From Prostheceraeus crozeri (taxonomy: Eukaryota > Platyhelminthes > Polycladida > Euryleptidae): 64,000 bases of DNA. How positions within the stretch are numbered: position 1 is the stretch's first letter; each line of letters starts with the position of its first letter. Shown here in pieces: positions 27,617-61,953 of the stretch. Under the pieces are notes generated by a model that did no database searches, was not told the DNA's origin, and worked only from the letters and a program-made list of their open reading frames with translations. A program made the translations under genes and the position numbers. Location of the stretch: contig CAJQUW010001438.1 of assembly GCA_907163375.1 (NCBI GenBank), forward strand, positions 62,001 through 126,000, in the 5' to 3' direction.

Positions 27617-28686
27617 AGCTGCGTGAAAGGTATGAACTTTCCTACTTGTGCAATGTTGCTTGAAACTTTCATTCTGCTCTACTGAAAAGTTAAAAAGTGG
27701 CGCTTATACACAATCTTTCATTCAGGGAGACGGTACCTACAAGCTGCATTGGCAAATGATTAAAAACTGTAGGTAGAGATTGATGGAAACCAAAAAGGCT
27801 GAAACACAGAATTAGATTCATCTGCGTGCGCTTCGGTTTCCTATGTAGAAAGGAAGAATTGTATGTAACCTTAAAATTGAAATGGCACATCACCGAATTA
27901 GAAAACTTGCTCCTTCTCGAATGGATAATTCGTGTATCGCTTGGTATTGGAAATGGCGAACAATAAGATGTCAGCAGAGGACAGTAGAGCCAGTGAGAGA
28001 TGCGTGCGTGCTGTGCACACACCAAAACACACATCGATGCCTGGCTTCGATTCAATGTATGCACTATACAGTGAGCAATGCCGAGGAGAGGATGTGAAAT
28101 CATCAAGTGAACTAATTTTCGTGCGCCTGCTACTTTCTTTAATAATGATCGGAAGGGCCAACATTATGGAGAAAACTTGTGGGCAATGATCTCATTTCTT
28201 AGAATCTGAAGGAATTTTGGCAATCGAAGCACTTTGCTGGAACTCACATTAATCCGCAAGCGACGCACGACTTTTTTTCCTATCTCTGTAAGGTATTAGG
28301 AATTCCTTTTTGCCCACCTAATAGGTTCCTCAATGTGCGTCCATTTCGTATTAATCACACTTCTAGCAAACCGAAGCAGATAAACAAAATATTTAATTCT
28401 GTGGGCTGAAAGGTCGTTTATTTATTTTGTATCCTTTTAGACACAGAAAATGCTGCTACTGAAGTTTTTTAAGTTTGAGAGATTGCTCTGATTAGGAAAT
28501 ATTAGGCCTCAGATGGAGTCGTAGAATGGTCGAGCGAAATTCAGCAACTGCAGGTCATCGCTGGTGAAGCTGAGGGCCGACTCCAAGCAGACCATTGCAA
28601 AAAGCTGAATGAGAATTGTTTTTCGTAATTTTTGATATTTAAGTACAATTCATCAATTCATCGATCATTATCTTTCTCTATTTCAG

Positions 28687-29043
28687 ACGTTGCTTATTTT
28701 TTCGCTGGCGATAATGGTGTCCGGCATTTCAGGAGGAGTTTACAAAGACTATTTTGATTATATATTTTTCGAAGGTGTGGAGAGGATACTCAGTAGGGAA
28801 GTGATTGACAGAGCATTAAATGATTGCAATAAAGAATGCTTCAAGAATATAACCTGCTTAAACGAGTGTGCAGAAATGATGAAGTTGCGACTGTGTAAAG
28901 TGGCAAAGGATAGCTGTGGTTATGAGATGTCTGCGTGCGAAGCATTCTATCAAACATGCTTACATTGCTACATTGTTAAATATTCCCTTACACCAAAAGG
29001 TCGACTGGAGCGGAAGATGACAGAAATCAGATATTATCCATAA
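28687..29043 (+). CDS. Secreted nine-cysteine protein, copy 1 (main exon)
   Basis: Last coding exon of a small secreted protein. A strong acceptor (pyrimidine run then TTTCAG, ending 28686) precedes an open frame of 118 codons to TAA. It starts with the hydrophobic core of a signal peptide (LLIFSLAIMVSGISG), so the initiator Met lies in an upstream exon I could not place; ATG at 28714 is a weaker alternative. The mature part has nine Cys: C-x3-C-x5-C-x3-C-x8-C-x6-C-x6-C-x6-C-x2-C, all between residues about 50 and 98, one N-glycosylation site (NIT), then a basic tail. I do not recognise the family. The twin at 61597 differs by two amino-acid changes and about two silent ones. An odd Cys number suggests dimerisation or one free Cys. 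Confidence 0.7.
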   Translation, partial: TLLIFSLAIMVSGISGGVYKDYFDYIFFEGVERILSREVIDRALNDCNKECFKNITCLNECAEMMKLRLCKVAKDSCGYEMSACEAFYQTCLHCYIVKYSLTPKGRLERKMTEIRYYP

Positions 29044-36018: not shown

Positions 36019-37687
36019 TACAGATTGTTTCATAAAAAATGGATCACCCTTAAACATCACCTTAACTTCAACTTTGTCTAACTCCGCCAAACTTGAACGA
36101 ATTTCTCTGAAATTTGGAAGATATCTCAGTTGCGCTTACTAATATCATTGTTGGAAATTTCAAGCATTAATATTTAGTTGTTTTCCTGTTATAGATAAAA
36201 AAGTAGTAGATAATTTGATCTTCATTTAGCAATGTTACACAAAATCATACCTCACTCTTATAAAATTATTTTTGTTTCCTTTGTTATGTAATATGTTGTT
36301 CTACAAGCCAAAAGCTATCAAGCAAAACAAAAATAAAGAAAATCGGTCAATCAGAGCCAGTATAGCACCATTATTCATCAACAATAATGTAACTGCTACA
36401 TGTGATTAACTGGACTTCATGTTCCATAGCTTCCTGACTTCGTAGCGGTGGTGTTGGCAGCACTCCTGATTGCTTTCAGCTAGAAATCTATCTCTTACCG
36501 GTTGAAAACAATACAAAGCACAAATGAACAATAACGAGATCGCATTCACAAAAGGCAAAGTGTCAGCCTTGCTAGAACTAGGCGAGGGTTTTCTTTGCGA
36601 GCTACAAGCAAGCGACTAAATGTCCCTTACACAAATGTGCATCGATGGCATAATGATGATTTTCGACTCTGTCGTAAAGAGGGCTCTGGCCGTCCACGCA
36701 AAACATCCAAACGTAGAGACCGCCTAATTTTCAGATTTGTTAAAGTTGATCCAAGTCTCTCGTTAACTGAGATGGCTGCACTAGACTCGTCTATTTCTAA
36801 GTCCACTATTCGTAGAAGACTTATTGAGTCGAATTTCAAGAGCTGTAAGAGGCCCTCTCAGATCGAATTATCAGATCAGCATATAAAAAGACGTCTCAGA
36901 TGGGCAATGAGTCATTCATTGTCACTGGCGAAATCAATGGGATCGGGTTGTCTGGTCTGATGAGGCATCAATCCGTCTGAAGGATAGTGATGGTCGATTG
37001 AGATTATGGATAAAATCTGATCAGGAAATTCCGAGACATTTACATCGTCCCCGGGTACGAGGTGGTGCGACTCTACTGATTTGGGCTGGCATTTGGACCA
37101 ATGGCCGCTCTGAACTTCACATACAGCAAGGAACCATGAATTCTGAACGCTATGTGAATGTTTTAAGAATGAACATTGGCCAAATGACAGATCAACTTGG
37201 TGATCCATCGACTTGGTTATTTATGGATGATAATACTACGTGTCACAGGAGTAGTAGAGTCAACTTATGCAAGTCTCAATTAGGGCTTAGGACATTATCT
37301 TGGCCAGGTCGTTCTCCTGATCTGAATCCCATAGAAAATGTATGGAGTATTCTAAAACGTAACGTTCGTCGTTCACTGCTACCTACAGATGGCGTATCAC
37401 AACTTACGTCACTGTTAAAAGGAGAGTGGAGAAAGTTAGATCAGTCAAAAATCAACGATATCATCGAATCAATGCCTAGAAGAATTGGTAATGTCATTGA
37501 CAATAAGGGTAGGGCCACAAAATATTAGCTTCTTAGGAACCGTTACTGTATCATAGCTTGTCAGATTATATAGGGACATTTAAATATATTAGGGACATGA
37601 AATAACATGAAAAATGCTTTCTGTATCATACTTATGTTTTATTTAGTCAAATTTTAGGATGATCCACTTTTTATGAAACGGACTGTA
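36019..37687. mobile_element. Tc1/mariner transposon with TIRs and TA target site
   Basis: Element 36021-37685 flanked by TA (36019-36020 and 37686-37687). The ends are inverted repeats of about 33 bp sharing GTTTCATAAAAA and TGGATCA with few mismatches. The interior is a DD34E transposase gene in plus orientation with two frameshifts. Size (1.67 kb) is normal for Tc1 elements. Confidence 0.9.
36524..37528 (+). pseudogene. Tc1-type DD34E transposase, two frameshifts
   Basis: ATG at 36524 begins MNNNEIAFTKGKVSALLELG, the first helix of the paired-type DNA-binding region. The frame shifts near 36590 to RATSKRLNVPYTNVHRW and a GRPRK AT-hook-like GSGRPRKT. SLSLTEMA and STIRRRL follow. A second shift near 36930 is needed to reach WDRVVWSDEASIRL (first Asp). 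WAGIW, then WLFMDDNTTCHRS (second Asp), and SPDLNPIENVW (Glu) complete the triad, with 34 residues between the second Asp and Glu. The rest to the stop at 37528 is intact. Only two lesions suggest fairly recent inactivation. Confidence 0.92.
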
Positions 37688-38964: not shown

Positions 38965-41900
38965 GACTATGCCCGAAATTCTAGCGACTCTTTGTATCTT
39001 GTGATATTGTGACGTGAAATCTACATGTAAACGTTTCAGCTTATCGAATCCTTGAGCTCAGCCCTAGGGGTCACTATGCCAAATTTCTAGCGGTTGTTGG
39101 TATCTTGTGATGCTGTGACGTGAAGTCCACATGTAGATGTTTCAGCTTATATAATCCCTGGGTTCAGCTTTGTGGGCCATTATGTCCGAATTCACAGCGG
39201 TTGTTGGTGTCTTGTGATATTTTGACTTGAAATCTACATGTAGATATTTCAGCTTATGTAATCCTTGGACTCAGCCCCAGGAGCCACTATGCCCGAATTT
39301 CTAGCGGTTCTTGATATCTTGTGATATTGTGACTTGAAATCTAAGTGTTTCAGCTTATATAATCTTTGGACTCAGCCCCAGGAGCCACTATGCCCGAATT
39401 TCTAGCGGGTCTTGATATCTTGTGATATTGTGACTTGAAATCTAAGTGTTTCAGCTCATTGAATCCTTAGGCTGAGCCCTAGGGGCCACTGTGCCCGAAT
39501 TCACAGCGGCTCTTGGTGTTTTGTGATATTGTGACTTGAAATCTATATGTAGATATTTCAGCTTATAACCCTGGGTTCAGCCCCAGGAGCCACTATGCCC
39601 GAATTTCTAGCGGTTCTTGATATCTTATGATATTGTGACCTGAAATCTAAGTGTTTCAGCTTATATAATCCTTGGACTCAGCCCCAGTGGCCACTATGCC
39701 CGAATTTCTAGCGGTTCTTGATATCTTGTGATATTGTGACTTGAAATCTAAATGTTTCAGCTTATTGAATCCTTAGGCTGAGCCCTAGGGGCCACTATGC
39801 CCGAATTCACAGCGGCTCTTGGTGTTTTGTGATATTGTGACTTGAAATCTGAGTGTTTCAGCTTATTGAATTCTTGGGCTCAGCCCTAGGGGCCACCATG
39901 CCCGAATCTCTATTGACTGTTGATATCTTGTGATATTGTGACCTGAAATCTAAGTGTTTCAGCTTATATAATCCTTGGACTCAGCCCCAGGAGCCACTAT
40001 GCCCGAATTTCTAGCGGTTCTTGATATCTTGTGATATTGTGACTTGAAATCTAAGTGTTTCAGCTTATATAATCCTTGGACTCAGCCCCAGGAGCCACTA
40101 TGCCCGAATTTCTAGCGGTTCTTGATATCTTGTGATATTGTGACTTGAAATCTAAATGTTTCAGCTTATTGAATTCTTAGGCTGTGCCCTAGTGGCCACT
40201 ATGCCCGAATTCACAGCGGCTCTTGGTGTTTTGTGATATTGTGACTTGAAATCTGAGTGTTTCAGCTTATTGAATCCTTAGGCTGAGCCCTAGGGGCCAC
40301 TATGCCCGAATTCACAGCGGCTCTTGGTGTTTTGTGATATTGTGACTTGAAATCTGAGTGTTTCAGCTTATTGAATTCTTGGGCTGAGCCCTAGGGGCCA
40401 CTATGCCCGAATCACTATTGACTGTTGATATCTTGTGATATTGTGACCTGAAATCTAAGTGTTTCAGCTTATATAATCCTTGGACTCAGCCCCAGTGGCC
40501 ACTATGCCTGAATCTCTAGCGGTTCTTGATATCTTGTGATATTGTGACTTGAAATCTAAATGTTTCAGCTTATTGAATCCTTAGGCTGAGCCCTAGGGGC
40601 CACTATGCCCGAATTCACAGCGGCTCTTGGTGTTTTGTGATATTGTGACTTGAAATCTGAGTGTTTCAGCTTATTGAATCCTTAGGCTGAGCCCTAGGGG
40701 CCACTATGCCCGAATTCACAGCGGCTCTTTGTGTTTTGTGATATTGTGACCTGAAATCTGAGTGTTTCAGTTTATTGAATCCTTAGGCTGAGCCCTAGGG
40801 GCCACTATGCCCGAATTCACAGCGGCTCTTGGTGTTTTGTGATATTGTGACTTGAAATCTGAGTGTTTCAGCTTATTGAATTCTTGGGCTCAGCCCTAGG
40901 GCCACTATGCCCGAATCTCTATTGTCTGTTGATATTTTGTGATATTGTGACCTGAAATCTAAGTGTTTCAGCTTATATAATCCTTGGACTCAGCCCCAGG
41001 AGCCACTATGCCCGAATTTCTAGCGGTTATTGATATCTTGTGATATTGTGACTTGAAATCTAAATGTTTCAGCTTATTGAATTCTTAGGCTGAGCCCTAG
41101 GGGCCACTATGCCCGAATTCACAGCGGCTCTTGGTGTTTTGTGATATTGTGACCTGAAATCTGAGTGTTTCAGCTTATTGAATCCTTAGGCTGAGCCCTA
41201 GGGGCCACTATGCCCGAATTCACAGCGGCTCTTTGTGTTTTGTGATATTGTGACTTGAAATCTGAGTGTTTCAGTTTATTGAATCCTTAGGCTGAGCCCT
41301 AGGGGCCACTATGCCCGAATTCACAGCGGCTCTTGGTGTTTTGTGATATTGTGACTTGAAATCTGAGTGTTTCAGCTTATTGAATTCTTGGGCTCAGCCC
41401 TAGGGGCCACTATGCCCGAATCTCTATTGACTGTTGATATTTTGTGATATTGTGACCTGAAATCTAAGTGTTTCAGCTTATATAATCCTTGGACTCAGCC
41501 CCAGGAGCCACTATGCCCGAATTTCTAGCGGTTCTTGATATCTTGTGATATTGTGACTTGAAATCTAAATGTTTCAGCTTATTGAATTCTTAGGCTGAGC
41601 CCTAGGGGCCACTATGCCCGAATCTCTATTGACTGTTGATATCTTGTGATATTGTGACCTGAAATCTAAGCGTTTCAGCTTATATAATCCTTGGACTCAG
41701 CCCCAGTGGCCACTATGCCCGAATCTCTAGCGGTTCTTGATATCTTGTGATATTGTGACTTGAAATCTAAATGTTTCAGCTTATTGAATTCTTAGGCTGA
41801 GCCCTAGGGGCCACTATGCCCGAATTCACAGCGGCTCTTGGTGTTTTGTGATATTGTGACTTGAAATCTGAGTGTTTCAGTTTATTGAATCCTTAGGCTG

Positions 41901-42533
41901 AGCCCTAGGGGCCACTATGCCCGAATTCACAGCGGCTCTTGGTGTTTTGTGATATTGTGACTTGAAATCTGAGTGTTTCAGCTTATTGAATTCTTGGGCT
42001 CAGCCCTAGGGGCCACCATGCCCGAATCTCTATTGACTGTTGATATTTTGTGATATTGTGACCTGAAATCTAAGTGTTTCAGCTTATATAATCCTTGGAC
42101 TCAGCCCCAGGAGCCACTATGCCCGAATTCACAGCGGCTCTTGATATCTTGTGATATTGTGACTTGAAATCTAAATGTTTCAGCTTATTGAATTCTTAGG
42201 CTGAGCCCTATGGGCCACTATGCCCGAATTCACAGCGGCTCTTGGTGTTTTGTGATATTGTGACTTGAAATCTGAGTGTTTCAGCTTATTGAATCCTTAG
42301 GCTGAGCCCTAGGGGCCACTATGCCCGAATTCACAGCGGCTCTTGGTGTTTTGTGATATTGTGACTTGAAATCTGAGTGTTTCAGCTTATTGAATCCTTA
42401 GGCTCAGCCCTAGGGGCCACCATGCCCGAATCTCTATTGACTGTTGATATCTTGTGATATTGTGACCTGAAATCTAAGTGTTTCAGCTTATATAATCCTT
42501 GGACTCAGCCCCAGGAGCCACTATGCCCGAATT
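38965..42533. repeat. ~101-bp satellite array, about 36 units
   Basis: Each unit contains ATGCCCGAAT, then a variable 'agcggttcttgatatc' part, TGTGATATTGTGAC, TGAAATCT, GTTTCAGCTTAT and a G/C-rich 'agccc(c/t)agg' part. Spacing between successive ATGCCCGAAT sites is 100-102 bp through most of the array, slightly irregular in the first five. Several unit types recur: TATATAATCCTTGGACTCAG, TTGAATCCTTAGGCTGAG and TTGAATTCTTGGGCTCAG, each with its own downstream variant. They alternate in runs, a higher-order pattern. Units at the left edge are the most diverged, as expected at an array margin. No coding role seen. Confidence 0.97.
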
Positions 42534-42554
42534 TTGTTTTAAAATCTCAGCTTT

Positions 42555-46296: not shown

Positions 46297-49200
46297 ATGA
46301 CACAGGTACGTTCAATTACATGTGAACGTACACAATGTGAGAACGGTCACAATTGTGACGTGTTATTTATTCATTGATTATTATTGCCTTGACAACTGAT
46401 GTGTGGTGGTGAGGGTTTGATCCTGCCAATTGACAGAGTCGCGTAAGTGGCTCGTAGCTCAGTTGGTTAGAGCGCAGGTCTAGTTAACCTTGGTCGTAGG
46501 TTCGAATCCTACCAGCCACACATCTTTTGCATGGCAATTTGATCTATCGTTTATTTAATTTCATTGTTGTTAATGATAGTAATTTATATAGATTATGTGA
46601 TACAGTATTGCGAATATCATTATTTAAATGCTGCATAGATTATATCATCTGCCAATGATTGTGTTTCAGGTACTTAAGATATCGGCAACTGAAAATGGTA
46701 AGATCAAATTTTTGAAGGTGAAGCCAATAGAGGAATTTGTAAGAGAAGGTGAGTGATTCGGGCTGAGTCATTAAATCTCGAATCAGATGGCTATTATTAT
46801 TATTATAACCCAAATACAAAATCTTTTCACAGCGGACTTAAATGTAATTTTTTTCATTTAAACCTGGTAAGTAAATCTCATTGGAGTTGCATGCATTAGA
46901 AAATGACATTCAAGTCCTCTAACAATTAATATAAATACTCTCTTTCATACTTATTTCGCTTTCGAAAGCTATTCTTGCTCCACTTGACAAATTGAGCACA
47001 ATTTTACTAAAGAAGAGGAAAACTGTGACTGATATGATCATCGCAACAGATACCACAAAGAAATTTATTCAACGTCTATTCAAAAATGCGGAAAGTGTTA
47101 TTTCTGATGCTCGGGTGAAAGTCAAAAAGTTGAACTTAAGTCCACCTGGATTATCGATCGACCGATCACTCCGTTTTGAATCCTCCTCAGCAGACTATCA
47201 GCAAGGAATAGATAAATACTTCAGAACTGAGTTCTATGAAGTTTTTGACTTTCAATGACGCAAATCTCGGCATGTTTTAATCAAGAATCAACAATATGTG
47301 ATCATAGAATCTGCTTTACTTCACACCGAAAATGAAAACGTTTCTAGACCTTCTGCATATCCCGAGTTCGATAAAGAGCACCTGATCATGCAGCTTAGAA
47401 AGTTTAAAGATCAGTATTTGTATTCTGTTATCTAGTGTTGAGGAGGTACTGGCTATAATCATGAATTTTCCATATGAACTGGGAATGCTGCATGATGAAG
47501 TAATAAAACTGAATTTTTGAATGTCATAGCTATTCGGCAACCGCCGAAAGAAGTCTCAGCGTTTTAAGACGCATGAAATATAAAACATGGCTACGATCTA
47601 CGATGCGACAGGAAAGATTGAATCATTAAGCGATCCTCAATACTCACAGAAATCGAATTGATGAGATTGACTTTGGTCGCGTTTGTAATAACTTTATTAC
47701 CTATCGTTTATCACGTGTGTCGCAGATTGGACTGTTCAATACTTATTGAAATTTTCATGAAATCGGTTTCTGTTGATGAACTGTTCACCAATTTTTGATT
47801 CATTTATGTAATACTACATGTACTAGGCCTATGCCCATATCCATAGAATGAATACATGATCTTACCAATGGCTACATGTGCAAAAGCATGAAATTATATC
47901 ATCTTTGAACATGCTATTACCGTAATGTAGTCATGTTTTAACATTAAATTCAAATATTATAATTTTGGTAAAAAAAGTGGCACCTGATATGCAACCACAC
48001 ACATGTATACATTTTCATTTCTATGACTGTTTCTTATATTTACTTCTACTTTTGCTTGAATTTTTCTTATTACTTTCGAAGTTGTCTAATTTCATTATTT
48101 ATATTATTTCAGGGAAAGAGTTGTTAGGGATTTCTGCTTCTGTAACCCTCTATACAGACGGTTTAGAAGTCGAAACCGATGATGGCCCGATCTGGGCAGC
48201 CCAGGCCGGAACAGTCATATACTTCAAAGATCGACAGCAACATTCCGTCGACATTCCCACAACAGCAACAAATGATGAAAATTCACTGGAGCCTTGGCCC
48301 TTGATTTACGTGTTGCCGCCAGTTGACCCCACCGTGCGACAGCAGATAGCAAGTTGGAGAACCAAGGAGGAGGCAAACAAACTGAAGTCAACGGCTAGCT
48401 TCTGCAAGTCATTCCTCTACCCAATCGTTGACGACATTGCGAGATACGTGGGGAATGAAAGGTAGAACAGTTAACGGAAACTAAATTTTTCAACAGCTGT
48501 TGACATAGCAAAATTGGACAATTCATATTTTTATGGCAAAATTTCATAAATTATACTTGAATTTCAATTACACAAGCTGCATACTTCTACAAATGAGGAT
48601 ATACTTCACGCCTCTCTGCGCCATACCCGTAAGATGTTCCAAAAAGTCAGACTTTCAAAAAATTAAAAGTCATGAAATGATCATATTACAAAATTGTCAT
48701 AAGGAAATTTTATATTTCAAATTACATTTTCAATTTGTGTAAATACTTGTGTTTACTGTGATTTATTTTATTGATTGATTTTGAATTTTATTCCCGAAAG
48801 ATGCACAACGAAATGCATGTTGGAGCATTTTGGGGTGGAGGCTTGATCTTGAATGCTAATCCCTCTACTGTTTCACTTGTGACAAATGCCTAATGAGTAG
48901 AAGGTGATTGATAGCCGAAGATACATTGGAGAACGTCGTGTCTCCGTTTAGATACCTGCATAGGCGGCTACACTGTTTTCTCGTAGAAAATATTGCAGGA
49001 AATAATAAATAAACACTATTTCATGTTGATATATTCACGTTTTATTATTTTACCGGTTGATGAAAACAGAAACCGGTGTTGAAGGCACAGTAGGTTGCTT
49101 TAAAAGTAGTGTTACATATCCACTGTACAGTCTTGTATCTTCCAAATATCCAGATGATTCATAGTTTATATACCAGTTCTCATAGTGAATATGTTCTTTA

Positions 49201-53408: not shown

Positions 53409-53460
<52 letters not shown>
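53409..53460. repeat. (AT)26 microsatellite, left flank
   Basis: Uninterrupted AT dinucleotide run immediately left of the hammerhead element. Confidence 0.99.
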
Positions 53461-53464
<4 letters not shown>

Positions 53465-53491
53465 TTATCAAATCTCAACAGATGTAGCCAC

Positions 53492-53531
53492 CACGAGACA
53501 TGTTTCGGCCTGTTGGGCCTCATCAGTCGTG
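53492..53531 (-). ncRNA. Hammerhead ribozyme A
   Basis: Minus strand: stem I CACGA/TCGTG; core CTGATGA; stem II GGCC-CAACA-GGCC; GAAA; stem III ACA/TGT with no loop; GTC cleavage triplet, cut between 53497 and 53496. Every conserved core position (C3-A9, G12-A14, A15.1-U16.1, C17) is present. The loopless self-complementary stem III means two molecules, or a tandem transcript, would pair to form a dimeric active form, as known for metazoan Penelope and retrozyme hammerheads. Confidence 0.88.
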
Positions 53532-53794
53532 AGTAGGCTTGAACCAGCGACGTTGGAGCTAGAGGACGTGCAAGCATACCCTCTAACCACAAGGCCACCG
53601 GACCATCTGTTGAGAGCGTGAATTAGCCAGGAAGGCACTGCTTTAACGCAGACACGTGGAGGACGGACTGCTTTCTGCAATCACTTAATACCACATCCGA
53701 GATTGAGGCGCTTCACGCAGGCGCTACTCATTACATGTTCAGGCAAGTAACCTGGCAATTGATAAATTTATCAAATCTCAACAGATGTAACCAC

Positions 53795-53834
53795 CACGAG
53801 ACATGTTTCGGCCTGTTGGGCCTCATCAGTCGTG
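53795..53834 (-). ncRNA. Hammerhead ribozyme B
   Basis: Identical core and stems to ribozyme A, 303 bp away, cut predicted between 53800 and 53799. Stem I is one pair longer (CCACGA/TCGTGG) because the flanking base differs from copy A (wobble there), which keeps pairing and hints at selection on structure. Confidence 0.88.
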
Positions 53835-53966
53835 GGTAGGTTTGAACCAGCGACGTTGGAGATAGAGGACGTGCAAGCATACCCTCTAACCACAAGGCCA
53901 CCGGACCATCTGTTGAGAGAATGAATTAGCCAGGAAGGCACTGCTTTAACGCAGGCACGTCGAGGG

Positions 53967-53968
<2 letters not shown>

Positions 53969-54016
<48 letters not shown>
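53969..54016. repeat. (AT)24 microsatellite, right flank
   Basis: Uninterrupted AT run immediately right of the hammerhead element; with the left tract it brackets the insertion. Confidence 0.99.
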
Positions 54017-60146: not shown

Positions 60147-61596
60147 AACACAACTGCTTGTCTATCATGCAGTTTTGAAGTAAATTTGAGAGGCTTGAAA
60201 ATAGACGAAATTTTGAATATTCGTACTTTGGATTTGAGATAATTGTGTTGCATTGGGTAATCAGCTGGAAATAGCAGGTCAAGGGATGTCATTACGCTAT
60301 ACGAAGATTAAAAGACGAGCTGTAAAAGACAATTCAGAGGAAAATTAGTCAATAATCACAAATGCAGCTTACTAGCGTTATTCATCGTGTCCTATTCGAT
60401 CATGAAATGACAAGGATGGGTGTCTAAGTGATATTTTGCGAAAACGAGACTTGTGCATGTTTTGGAATGAGCATTTACGCTACAACATAATTAATCCTAC
60501 ATTTCTAGCTGAGCAAGCAAACAAACTAGCTGCGTGAAAGGTATGAACTTTCCTACTTGTGCAATGTTGCTTGAAACTTTCATTCTGCTCTACTGAAAAG
60601 TTAAAAAGTGGCGCTTATACACAATCTTTCATTCAGGGAGACGGTACCTACAAGCTGCATTGGCAAATGATTAAAAACTGTAGGTAGAGATTGATGGAAA
60701 CCAAAAAGGCTGAAACACAGAATTAGATTCATCTGCGCGCTCTTCGGTTTCCTATGTAGAAAGGAAGAATTGTATGTAACCTTAAAATTGAAATGGCACA
60801 TCACCGAATTAGAAAACTTGCTCCTTCTCGAATGGATAATTCGTGTATCGCTTGGTATTGGAAATGGCGAACAATAAGATGTCAGCAGAGGACAGTAGAG
60901 CCAGTGAGAGATGCGTGCGTGCTGTGCACACACCAAAACACACATCGATGCCTGGCTTCGATTCAATGTATGCACTATACAGTGAGCAATGCCGAGGAGA
61001 GGATGTGAAATCATCAAGTGAACTAATTTTCGTGCGCCTGCTACTTTCTTTAATAATGATCGGAAGGGCCAACATTATGGAGAAAACTTGTGGGCAATGA
61101 TCTCATTTCTTAGAATCTGAAGGAATTTTGGCAATCGAAGCACTTTGCTGGAACTCACATTAATCCGCAAGCGACGCACGACTTTTTTCCTATCTCTGTA
61201 AGGTATTAGGAATTCCTTTTTGCCCACCTAATAGGTTCCTCAATGTGCGTCCATTTCGTATTAATCACACTTCTAGCAAACCGAAGCAGATAAACAAAAT
61301 ATTTAATTCTGTGGGCTGAAAGGTCGTTTATTTATTTTGTATCCTTTTAGACACAGAAAATGCTGCTACTGAAGTTTTTTAAGTTTGAGAGATTGCTCTG
61401 ATTAGGAAATATTAGGCCTCAGATGGAGTCGTAGAATGGTCGAGCGAAATTCAGCAACTGCAGGTCATCGCTGGTGAAGCTGAGGGCCGACTCCAAGCAG
61501 ACCATTGCAAAAAGCTGAATGAGAATTTTTTTTCGTAATTTTTGATATTTAAGTACAATTCATCAATTCATCGATCATTATCTTTCTCTATTTCAG

Positions 61597-61953
61597 ACGT
61601 TGCTTATTTTTTCGCTGGCGATGATGGTGTCCGGCATTTCAGGAGGAGTTTACAAAGACTATTTTGATTATATATTTTTCGAAGGTGTGGAGAGGATACT
61701 CAGTAGGGAAGTAATTGACAGAGCACTAAATGATTGCAATAAAGAATGCTTCAAGAATATAACCTGCTTAAACGAGTGTGCAGAAATGATGAAGTTGCGA
61801 CTGTGTAAAGTGGCAAAGGATAGCTGTGGTTATGAGATGTCTGCGTGCGAAGCATTCTATCAAACATGCTTACATTGCTACACTGTTAAATATTCCCTTA
61901 CACCAAAAGGTCGACTGGAGCGGAAGATGACAGAAATCAGATATTATCCATAA
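61597..61953 (+). CDS. Secreted nine-cysteine protein, copy 2 (main exon)
   Basis: Duplicate of the exon at 28687-29043, with the same acceptor, length, stop and all nine cysteines. Changes seen are Ile to Met in the signal peptide core and Ile to Thr in the last Cys-rich segment, plus silent changes in the codons for Val (GTG to GTA) and Leu (TTA to CTA). The upstream intron sequence is almost identical, so exon 1, if within the duplicated block, should also be shared. Both copies look intact, so both may be expressed. Function is unknown; the layout is that of a secreted, disulfide-rich extracellular protein. Confidence 0.7.
   Translation, partial: TLLIFSLAMMVSGISGGVYKDYFDYIFFEGVERILSREVIDRALNDCNKECFKNITCLNECAEMMKLRLCKVAKDSCGYEMSACEAFYQTCLHCYTVKYSLTPKGRLERKMTEIRYYP

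Follow-up and report, generated by a model that had tools for sequence, protein, structure and literature searches.

Insertion ends of a hammerhead retrozyme in the flatworm Prostheceraeus crozeri point to Penelope-like, doubly primed reverse transcription

Introduction

What kind of element leaves two hammerhead ribozymes one repeat period apart in a flatworm genome, and how does it get there? The pair lies in a 64,000-nucleotide stretch of Prostheceraeus crozeri contig CAJQUW010001438.1 (positions 62,001 to 126,000), which we call the window. Metazoan non-LTR retrozymes are likewise tandem repeats of 150-450 bp with type I hammerheads (Cervera and de la Pena 2020, PMC7229834); according to the available text of that paper, their RNAs measure about 170-400 nt, and they are thought to be mobilised by LINEs or Penelope-like elements. 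Both the mover of animal retrozymes and the role of circles as intermediates are described as likely but unproven in the accessible parts of PMC7229834 (2020) and PMC11722881 (2024). The anatomy of retrozyme ends opens the mobility of such RNA elements to direct test, in that hundreds of insertion ends record the start sites, the target, the pairing of ends and, by inference, the topology of the template. The ends described below suggest machinery of the Penelope type and single out nucleotides 34 and 62 of the unit as its exact candidate start points.

Results and Discussion

Two complete hammerheads 303 nt apart

The minus strand at 53463-53965 is a 503-nt retrozyme insertion with an (AT)n tract on either side. 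The initial annotation, made from the window alone, had placed it at 53467..53966, essentially the same insertion with slightly different ends. Its features are as follows.

53463..53965, minus strand: one-armed insertion, made of a 5'-truncated unit of 166 nt, a full unit of 303 nt and a third unit of 34 nt
53497..53799, minus strand: full 303-nt unit, cleavage site to cleavage site, with 7 departures from the family majority
53780..53845, minus strand: upstream type I hammerhead, predicted cut 53800/53799
53477..53542, minus strand: downstream type I hammerhead, predicted cut 53497/53496
53463..53463, minus strand: 3' end of the insertion, type A (unit position 34), followed by (TA)n
53759..53774, minus strand: hairpin A, unit 26-41, with start point A in its loop at 53766 (fold of the majority-type unit and end mapping)
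53730..53751, minus strand: hairpin B, unit 49-70, with start point B at about 53738 (fold of the majority-type unit)
53409..53462, no strand: (AT)n tract on the 3' side of the insertion
53966..54016, no strand: (AT)n tract on the 5' side of the insertion

Each unit boundary in the insertion is spanned by a complete type I hammerhead. The two cores are identical, CTGATGAG GCC CAACA GGC CGAAACATGTC, and the cleavage sites predicted from them, spaced by exactly 303 nt, are those that the initial annotation had named. The stems that it had described were also all recovered. Stem II is GGCC/GGCC (4 bp) and stem III the loopless palindrome ACATGT (3 bp) in both hammerheads, and stem I is CCACGA/TCGTGG in the upstream motif and TCACGA/TCGTGG, with one wobble, in the downstream motif. 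Stem I has an outer 4-bp extension that the initial annotation had not listed, AACC/GGTT upstream and AGCC/GGCT downstream, in which one pair is changed on both sides, from A-U to G-C in the downstream copy; this is a single compensatory case, with no statistical test.

A shuffle test gives an expectation of 0.02 occurrences of the core pattern per shuffled window, the six matches returned for the window being overlapping reports of the same two motifs, and local folds reproduce the hammerhead stems (z -2.29 downstream, -1.73 upstream). A covariance search had been proposed as a check. The best Rfam model, RF02275 (Hammerhead_HH9), matches with 33.5 and 32.6 bits (E 1.6e-6 and 3.3e-6 in a search of 801 bases), but both scores lie below its gathering score of 52, and at gathering scores Rfam reports one tRNA only in the whole window. 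The two motifs are complete type I hammerheads, and self-cleavage is predicted from their sequence.

A dispersed family of non-coding units

The genome, 2.05 Gb in size, contains 1,650 exact copies of the 36-nt ribozyme string (899 forward, 751 reverse) and none of its backward control. A search with the unit gave 184 matches, from 39 scored of 707 candidate places. The 303-bp units are dispersed on many contigs and are much alike: in a comparison of 126 full-length 303-nt units, departures from the majority base exceed two at 11 positions only. The full unit in the window, with its seven departures, is therefore probably older than most units examined; the window's two units differ from each other at 7 of 166 aligned bases. 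The longest stop-free stretch in the tandem unit is 70 codons, which bears out the earlier reading of a monomer that has no protein, and a Pfam search of ten ORFs in the window found no reverse transcriptase and one DDE_3 transposase.

By the features tested, the element is a metazoan non-LTR retrozyme, a known kind. Every unit carries a type I hammerhead with a conserved core, the dispersed tandem units of 303 bp fall within the range of 150-450 bp, no protein is encoded, and six insertions outside (TA)n have target duplications of 12-14 bp. The text available to us of PMC7229834 describes no LTR features in metazoan retrozymes and duplications longer than 4 bp, as here, and gives their GC content as under 50%, against 50.5% for this unit, a marginal difference in a trait that is descriptive rather than defining. 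The resemblance to metazoan retrozymes seen by the initial annotation holds, with type I hammerheads in tandem one period apart in a dispersed, multicopy element. Its suggestion that the short monomer could be a new family does not, since tandem type I repeats of 150-450 bp are the described anatomy of metazoan retrozymes (PMC7229834). Canonical Penelope elements encode a reverse transcriptase and a GIY-YIG endonuclease, whereas this unit encodes nothing and is therefore not a Penelope element.

Other hammerhead repeats offer further comparisons. Schistosoma W-elements and other satellite-like hammerhead repeats, compared by description only, share the satellite-like form and possible target duplications, and evidence of functional hammerheads is reported for some of them; the A and B ends described below do not figure in the accessible part of that account (PMC8490949). 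Plant LTR retrozymes are likewise non-coding, hammerhead-processed and found as circular RNA in the part of PMC11722881 available, cleavage and circles being inferred for the present element. They differ in having type III hammerheads, LTRs, a PBS, a PPT and units of about 700 bp, according to the text seen of PMC7761336.

Two fixed ends, one on each arm

Thirty-seven regions, with six extensions, were fetched around the best unit matches, so that long, young arrays are over-represented among them. Most of these regions hold two arrays of tandem units in opposite orientation, joined 5' to 5', that is, head to head. The 3' ends that face outward occur at two fixed places in the unit, A (position 34, ..TTTGATAAAT) and B (about position 62, ..TTGTCTAAA), 28 nt apart, beyond which lies (TA)n or other host DNA. 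The window copy has a single arm and a single A end, and the two-armed anatomy escaped the initial annotation because one window cannot show it.

Among insertions typed by script at both ends, 15 are A..B, 14 are B..A and one is A..A, so that 29 of 30 have one A and one B end. Outside these 30 are 14 single-ended entries and the paired entries L042 2674/3621 and L051, which represent internal noisy units or a contig end. Reading by hand added A/B insertions missed by the script (L037, the first copy in L038 and the third in L042), and script-typed and hand-read insertions together show A/B pairing in 32 of 36. This tally includes L037, whose B end lies at about 66-68, and L046, counted as A/B and irregular inside. 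The exceptions within the 36 are L047, which is A/A, the first and second insertions of L042, each with an arm that ends at position 300, and the first of L050, with one arm that ends at 216. The two L042 arms (1351 and 2015) run directly into (TA)n three bases before the ribozyme cut, and their template was perhaps a cut linear RNA.

A genome-wide search for junction strings with (TA)n found A and B ends in similar numbers, 266 and 211 respectively, with backward controls at 0. These strings must be exact and lie in (TA)n, so other end types are invisible in such lists. Pairing was checked within the first 100 places of each end type, unranked and in contig order, as far as contig C5241, where the A list stops (100 A and 74 B places). 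In 32 insertions among these, the left and right ends lie no more than 8 kb apart; 18 of them are A..B and 14 B..A, with 0 A..A and 0 B..B, and nine of the 32 are common to the script-typed set. Two further adjacent pairs face outward and are neighbouring insertions. For many ends the lists contain no mate, which is what one-armed insertions, mutated ends and ends outside exact (TA)n would produce. The distances between end strings in the 32 run from 58 to 6,104 nt, and A/B pairing is therefore independent of array length. Even very short two-ended insertions, whose end strings are separated by 58-83 nt, pair an A end with a B end (G000 C2991:2251-2336, C4378:333709-333809 and C2198:307841-307951). 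Orientation of the ribozymes agrees: among the first 100 ribozyme places, unranked, opposite neighbours less than 3 kb apart are head to head in 14 cases and tail to tail in 2.

We found no description of this two-ended anatomy in the open-access papers searched, and the accessible text of PMC7229834 contains no mention of 'microsatellite' or 'target site', of two fixed ends or of head-to-head arms. The insertion anatomy, with the connection to Penelope-like elements that it suggests, thus appears new for an element of a kind already known, with priority uncertain because the search covered the main text of open-access papers.

Targets, joints and RNA folding

Targets are mostly (TA)n. Elsewhere, target duplications of about 12-14 bp flank insertions in L022, L034, L044, L045 and L053, and the one-armed L031 has a 13-bp duplication; a few of the duplicated bases may belong to the ends of the element. 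The 5' stops of the arms are variable and spread along the unit, and the joints between arms overlap by at least 2 nt in 12 of 30 insertions (about 15% expected), are flush in 3 and carry filler of 2-58 nt in 15, which looks like end joining. Arms reach about 5 kb, and the lengths of A and B arms are correlated (rho 0.69, n=29), a relation to which the choice of loci may contribute. From sequence alone, the anatomy comprises two fixed ends, one per arm, head-to-head joints, target duplications and sameness of units within an insertion.

The whole unit folds better than its shuffles (z -3.56). When it is folded as a circle, A falls in the apical loop of the hairpin spanning 26-41, and B lies where the loop of an adjoining hairpin begins or ends. 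Taken by themselves, the two hairpins do not outperform shuffled sequences (z -0.96), so their link to A and B is one of position only. One subfamily breaks a pair of hairpin A (position 39), and the window copy has two base changes in hairpin B (unit 57, 60).

Comparison with Penelope-like elements

In the parts of PMC11167929 available, reverse transcription by the purified lizard Penelope protein begins at two internal sites of the RNA that lie next to each other; the protein also cleaves both strands of its target, extends them and favours AT-rich DNA. The interval between its start sites corresponds to the genomic tail of 30-40 bp, and in vitro its choice of start site did not differ detectably from one strand to the other. 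Adineta Penelope inserts, as described in the accessible text of PMC3846280, have head-to-head inverted terminal repeats, duplications of 8-10 bp and a 31-bp tail on one side. By these partial accounts (PMC11167929, PMC3846280), Penelope-like elements share with the retrozyme two adjacent internal start sites, AT-rich targets, short duplications, head-to-head inverted copies and a hammerhead upstream of the start sites. The retrozyme matches in each respect that concerns the insertion: A and B leave a one-sided tail of 28 nt (30-40 nt in Penelope, PMC11167929), and copies lie head to head in AT-rich targets with short duplications. Two differences stand out in the same sources (PMC11167929, PMC3846280), namely that Penelope-like elements encode a reverse transcriptase and GIY-YIG endonuclease and the retrozyme nothing, and that the Penelope tail is called optional while one retrozyme arm is tailed in nearly every insertion examined.

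GIY-YIG sequences are common in this genome (150 places scored of 11,858 candidates), many of them within ORFs of 720-741 codons. ORFs that match GIY-YIG, reverse transcriptase or both flank L054, L042, L050, L038 and L026, although several scores are weak. Among 15 local Penelope pieces, none shares the A/B region, and no match beyond the bases of the retrozyme itself has an E value under 0.4. Two fixed ends or a tail were not seen in two local two-ORF Penelope families, which have one end cluster each: in the first, 37 of 41 matches end at query 141-160, and of the 12 in the second, 3 stop at 145 while the other nine continue to 267-281.

Several minor observations concern these elements. 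Penelope-like ORF pieces adjoin retrozymes in the same or neighbouring (TA)n in L026, L036, L038, L040, L042, L050 and L054, and one neighbouring Penelope ORF has named relatives from Crassostrea, Argonauta, Octopus, Mytilus, Priapulus, Ptychodera and Xenopus. Inspection by eye shows motifs resembling hammerheads near Penelope ends. In L064-L072, inspection by eye also suggests such motifs with the core UUGAUAA..GAAACCGGUC, located between the two ORFs of Penelope-like elements (in L069 at about 290-335, for instance), in which the usual C3-G8 pair seems to be replaced by U3-A8.

Proposed mechanism and its alternatives

We propose that this non-LTR retrozyme is moved by Penelope-like, doubly primed reverse transcription, and give this reading a probability of roughly 70%. 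Tandem copies would be transcribed, the hammerheads would cut the transcript into 303-nt monomers, and these would be ligated into circles. A Penelope-type reverse transcriptase/endonuclease would cleave the two strands at an AT-rich site, in most cases (TA)n, with a stagger of about 12-14 bp. The 3' ends exposed on the target would then each prime a cDNA on the RNA, one at A (34) and the other at B (about 62), and each cDNA might circle the template several times, to give two opposite arrays with free ends joined head to head by end joining. The pairing of A with B in 29 of 30 and 32 of 32 insertions, the head-to-head joints, the target duplications, the abundance of GIY-YIG elements and the position of both ends at loops or loop edges of adjoining hairpins support priming of the Penelope type. 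Against it stand the local Penelope pieces that lack the A/B region and the two local families described above, the exceptional insertions, the hairpin z score, the break in hairpin A, the lizard enzyme's like choice of start site on either strand and its indifference to ribozyme mutations (PMC11167929), and L056, discussed below. The anatomy suggests that an insertion consists of two separately primed cDNAs that are then end-joined, as opposed to the self-primed inverted repeat proposed for Adineta in the available text of PMC3846280.

A more specific version, which we put forward tentatively and would not bet on, has one circle copied simultaneously by both halves of a dimeric Penelope-type enzyme, on two hairpins 28 nt apart. 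Each half would be fed by one target strand, and the cDNAs would chase each other round the circle and be joined head to head. If true, it would account for the tail of Penelope, for copies in head-to-head orientation and for the re-entry of animal RNA circles into the genome.

The template bears on the closest competitor, in which the same doubly primed Penelope-type insertion copies a long, uncut tandem transcript and the ribozyme is not needed for insertion. Lizard Penelope ribozyme mutants insert normally in vitro, with unprocessed RNA as the main substrate, in the portion of PMC11167929 available, and arms of up to about 5 kb could derive from long transcripts. A mixed parent array, however, should give mixed arms, whereas most departures from the majority are confined to one unit (304) or shared by all units (13), and 28 are partial. 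This counterpoint is weakened by the clustering of some of the 304 in noisy units, which may be assembly errors. Variants run through every unit of both arms in L036 (19/19), L041 (12/12), L054 (10/10), L024 (8/8) and L039 (3/3); L056 is a counter-case, with a variant confined to one arm. Such uniform arms fit one monomer-sized, presumably circular template per insertion, copied round by two polymerases, but a homogeneous uncut linear multimer could likewise yield them. On balance we consider the uncut transcript an unlikely template.

A LINE-type enzyme acting in trans, with the inverted arm as an ordinary product of twin priming, seems distinctly improbable. LINE products are known to carry 5' inversions, but the second site of twin priming is variable, whereas the second end here is fixed at A or B, and the starts are internal to the unit rather than at the RNA 3' end or at poly(A). 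Tandem arrays and 303-bp spacing might suggest a satellite that was amplified as DNA and carried its hammerheads along as passengers, but this is scarcely credible in view of the many contigs, fixed 3' ends, variable 5' stops and target duplications.

Three other candidates were set aside. A self-primed hairpin cDNA is disfavoured because in most insertions the two arms break off at unequal places in the unit and meet through microhomology or filler. A linear monomer as the general template would place ends at the ribozyme cut, and only the two L042 arms come near it, three bases short. An internal Pol III promoter, as in SINEs, had been considered from boxes seen by eye, but the best A/B-box pair has 3 mismatches and 461 of 5,000 shuffles are equal or better; no tRNA model matches in the element region.

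Other features of the window

Elsewhere in the window, a tandem array at 38966-42534 has about 35 copies of 101 bp with a higher-order period of 404 bp. Near-identical repeat copies at 27690-29043 and 60601-61953, about 33 kb apart, contain the same opposite ORF pair (157 and 135 codons). A Tc1/mariner-type transposase remnant in two frames, with a DDE_3 match, lies at 36535-37528, and a tRNA-Thr(AGT) gene at 46447-46521.
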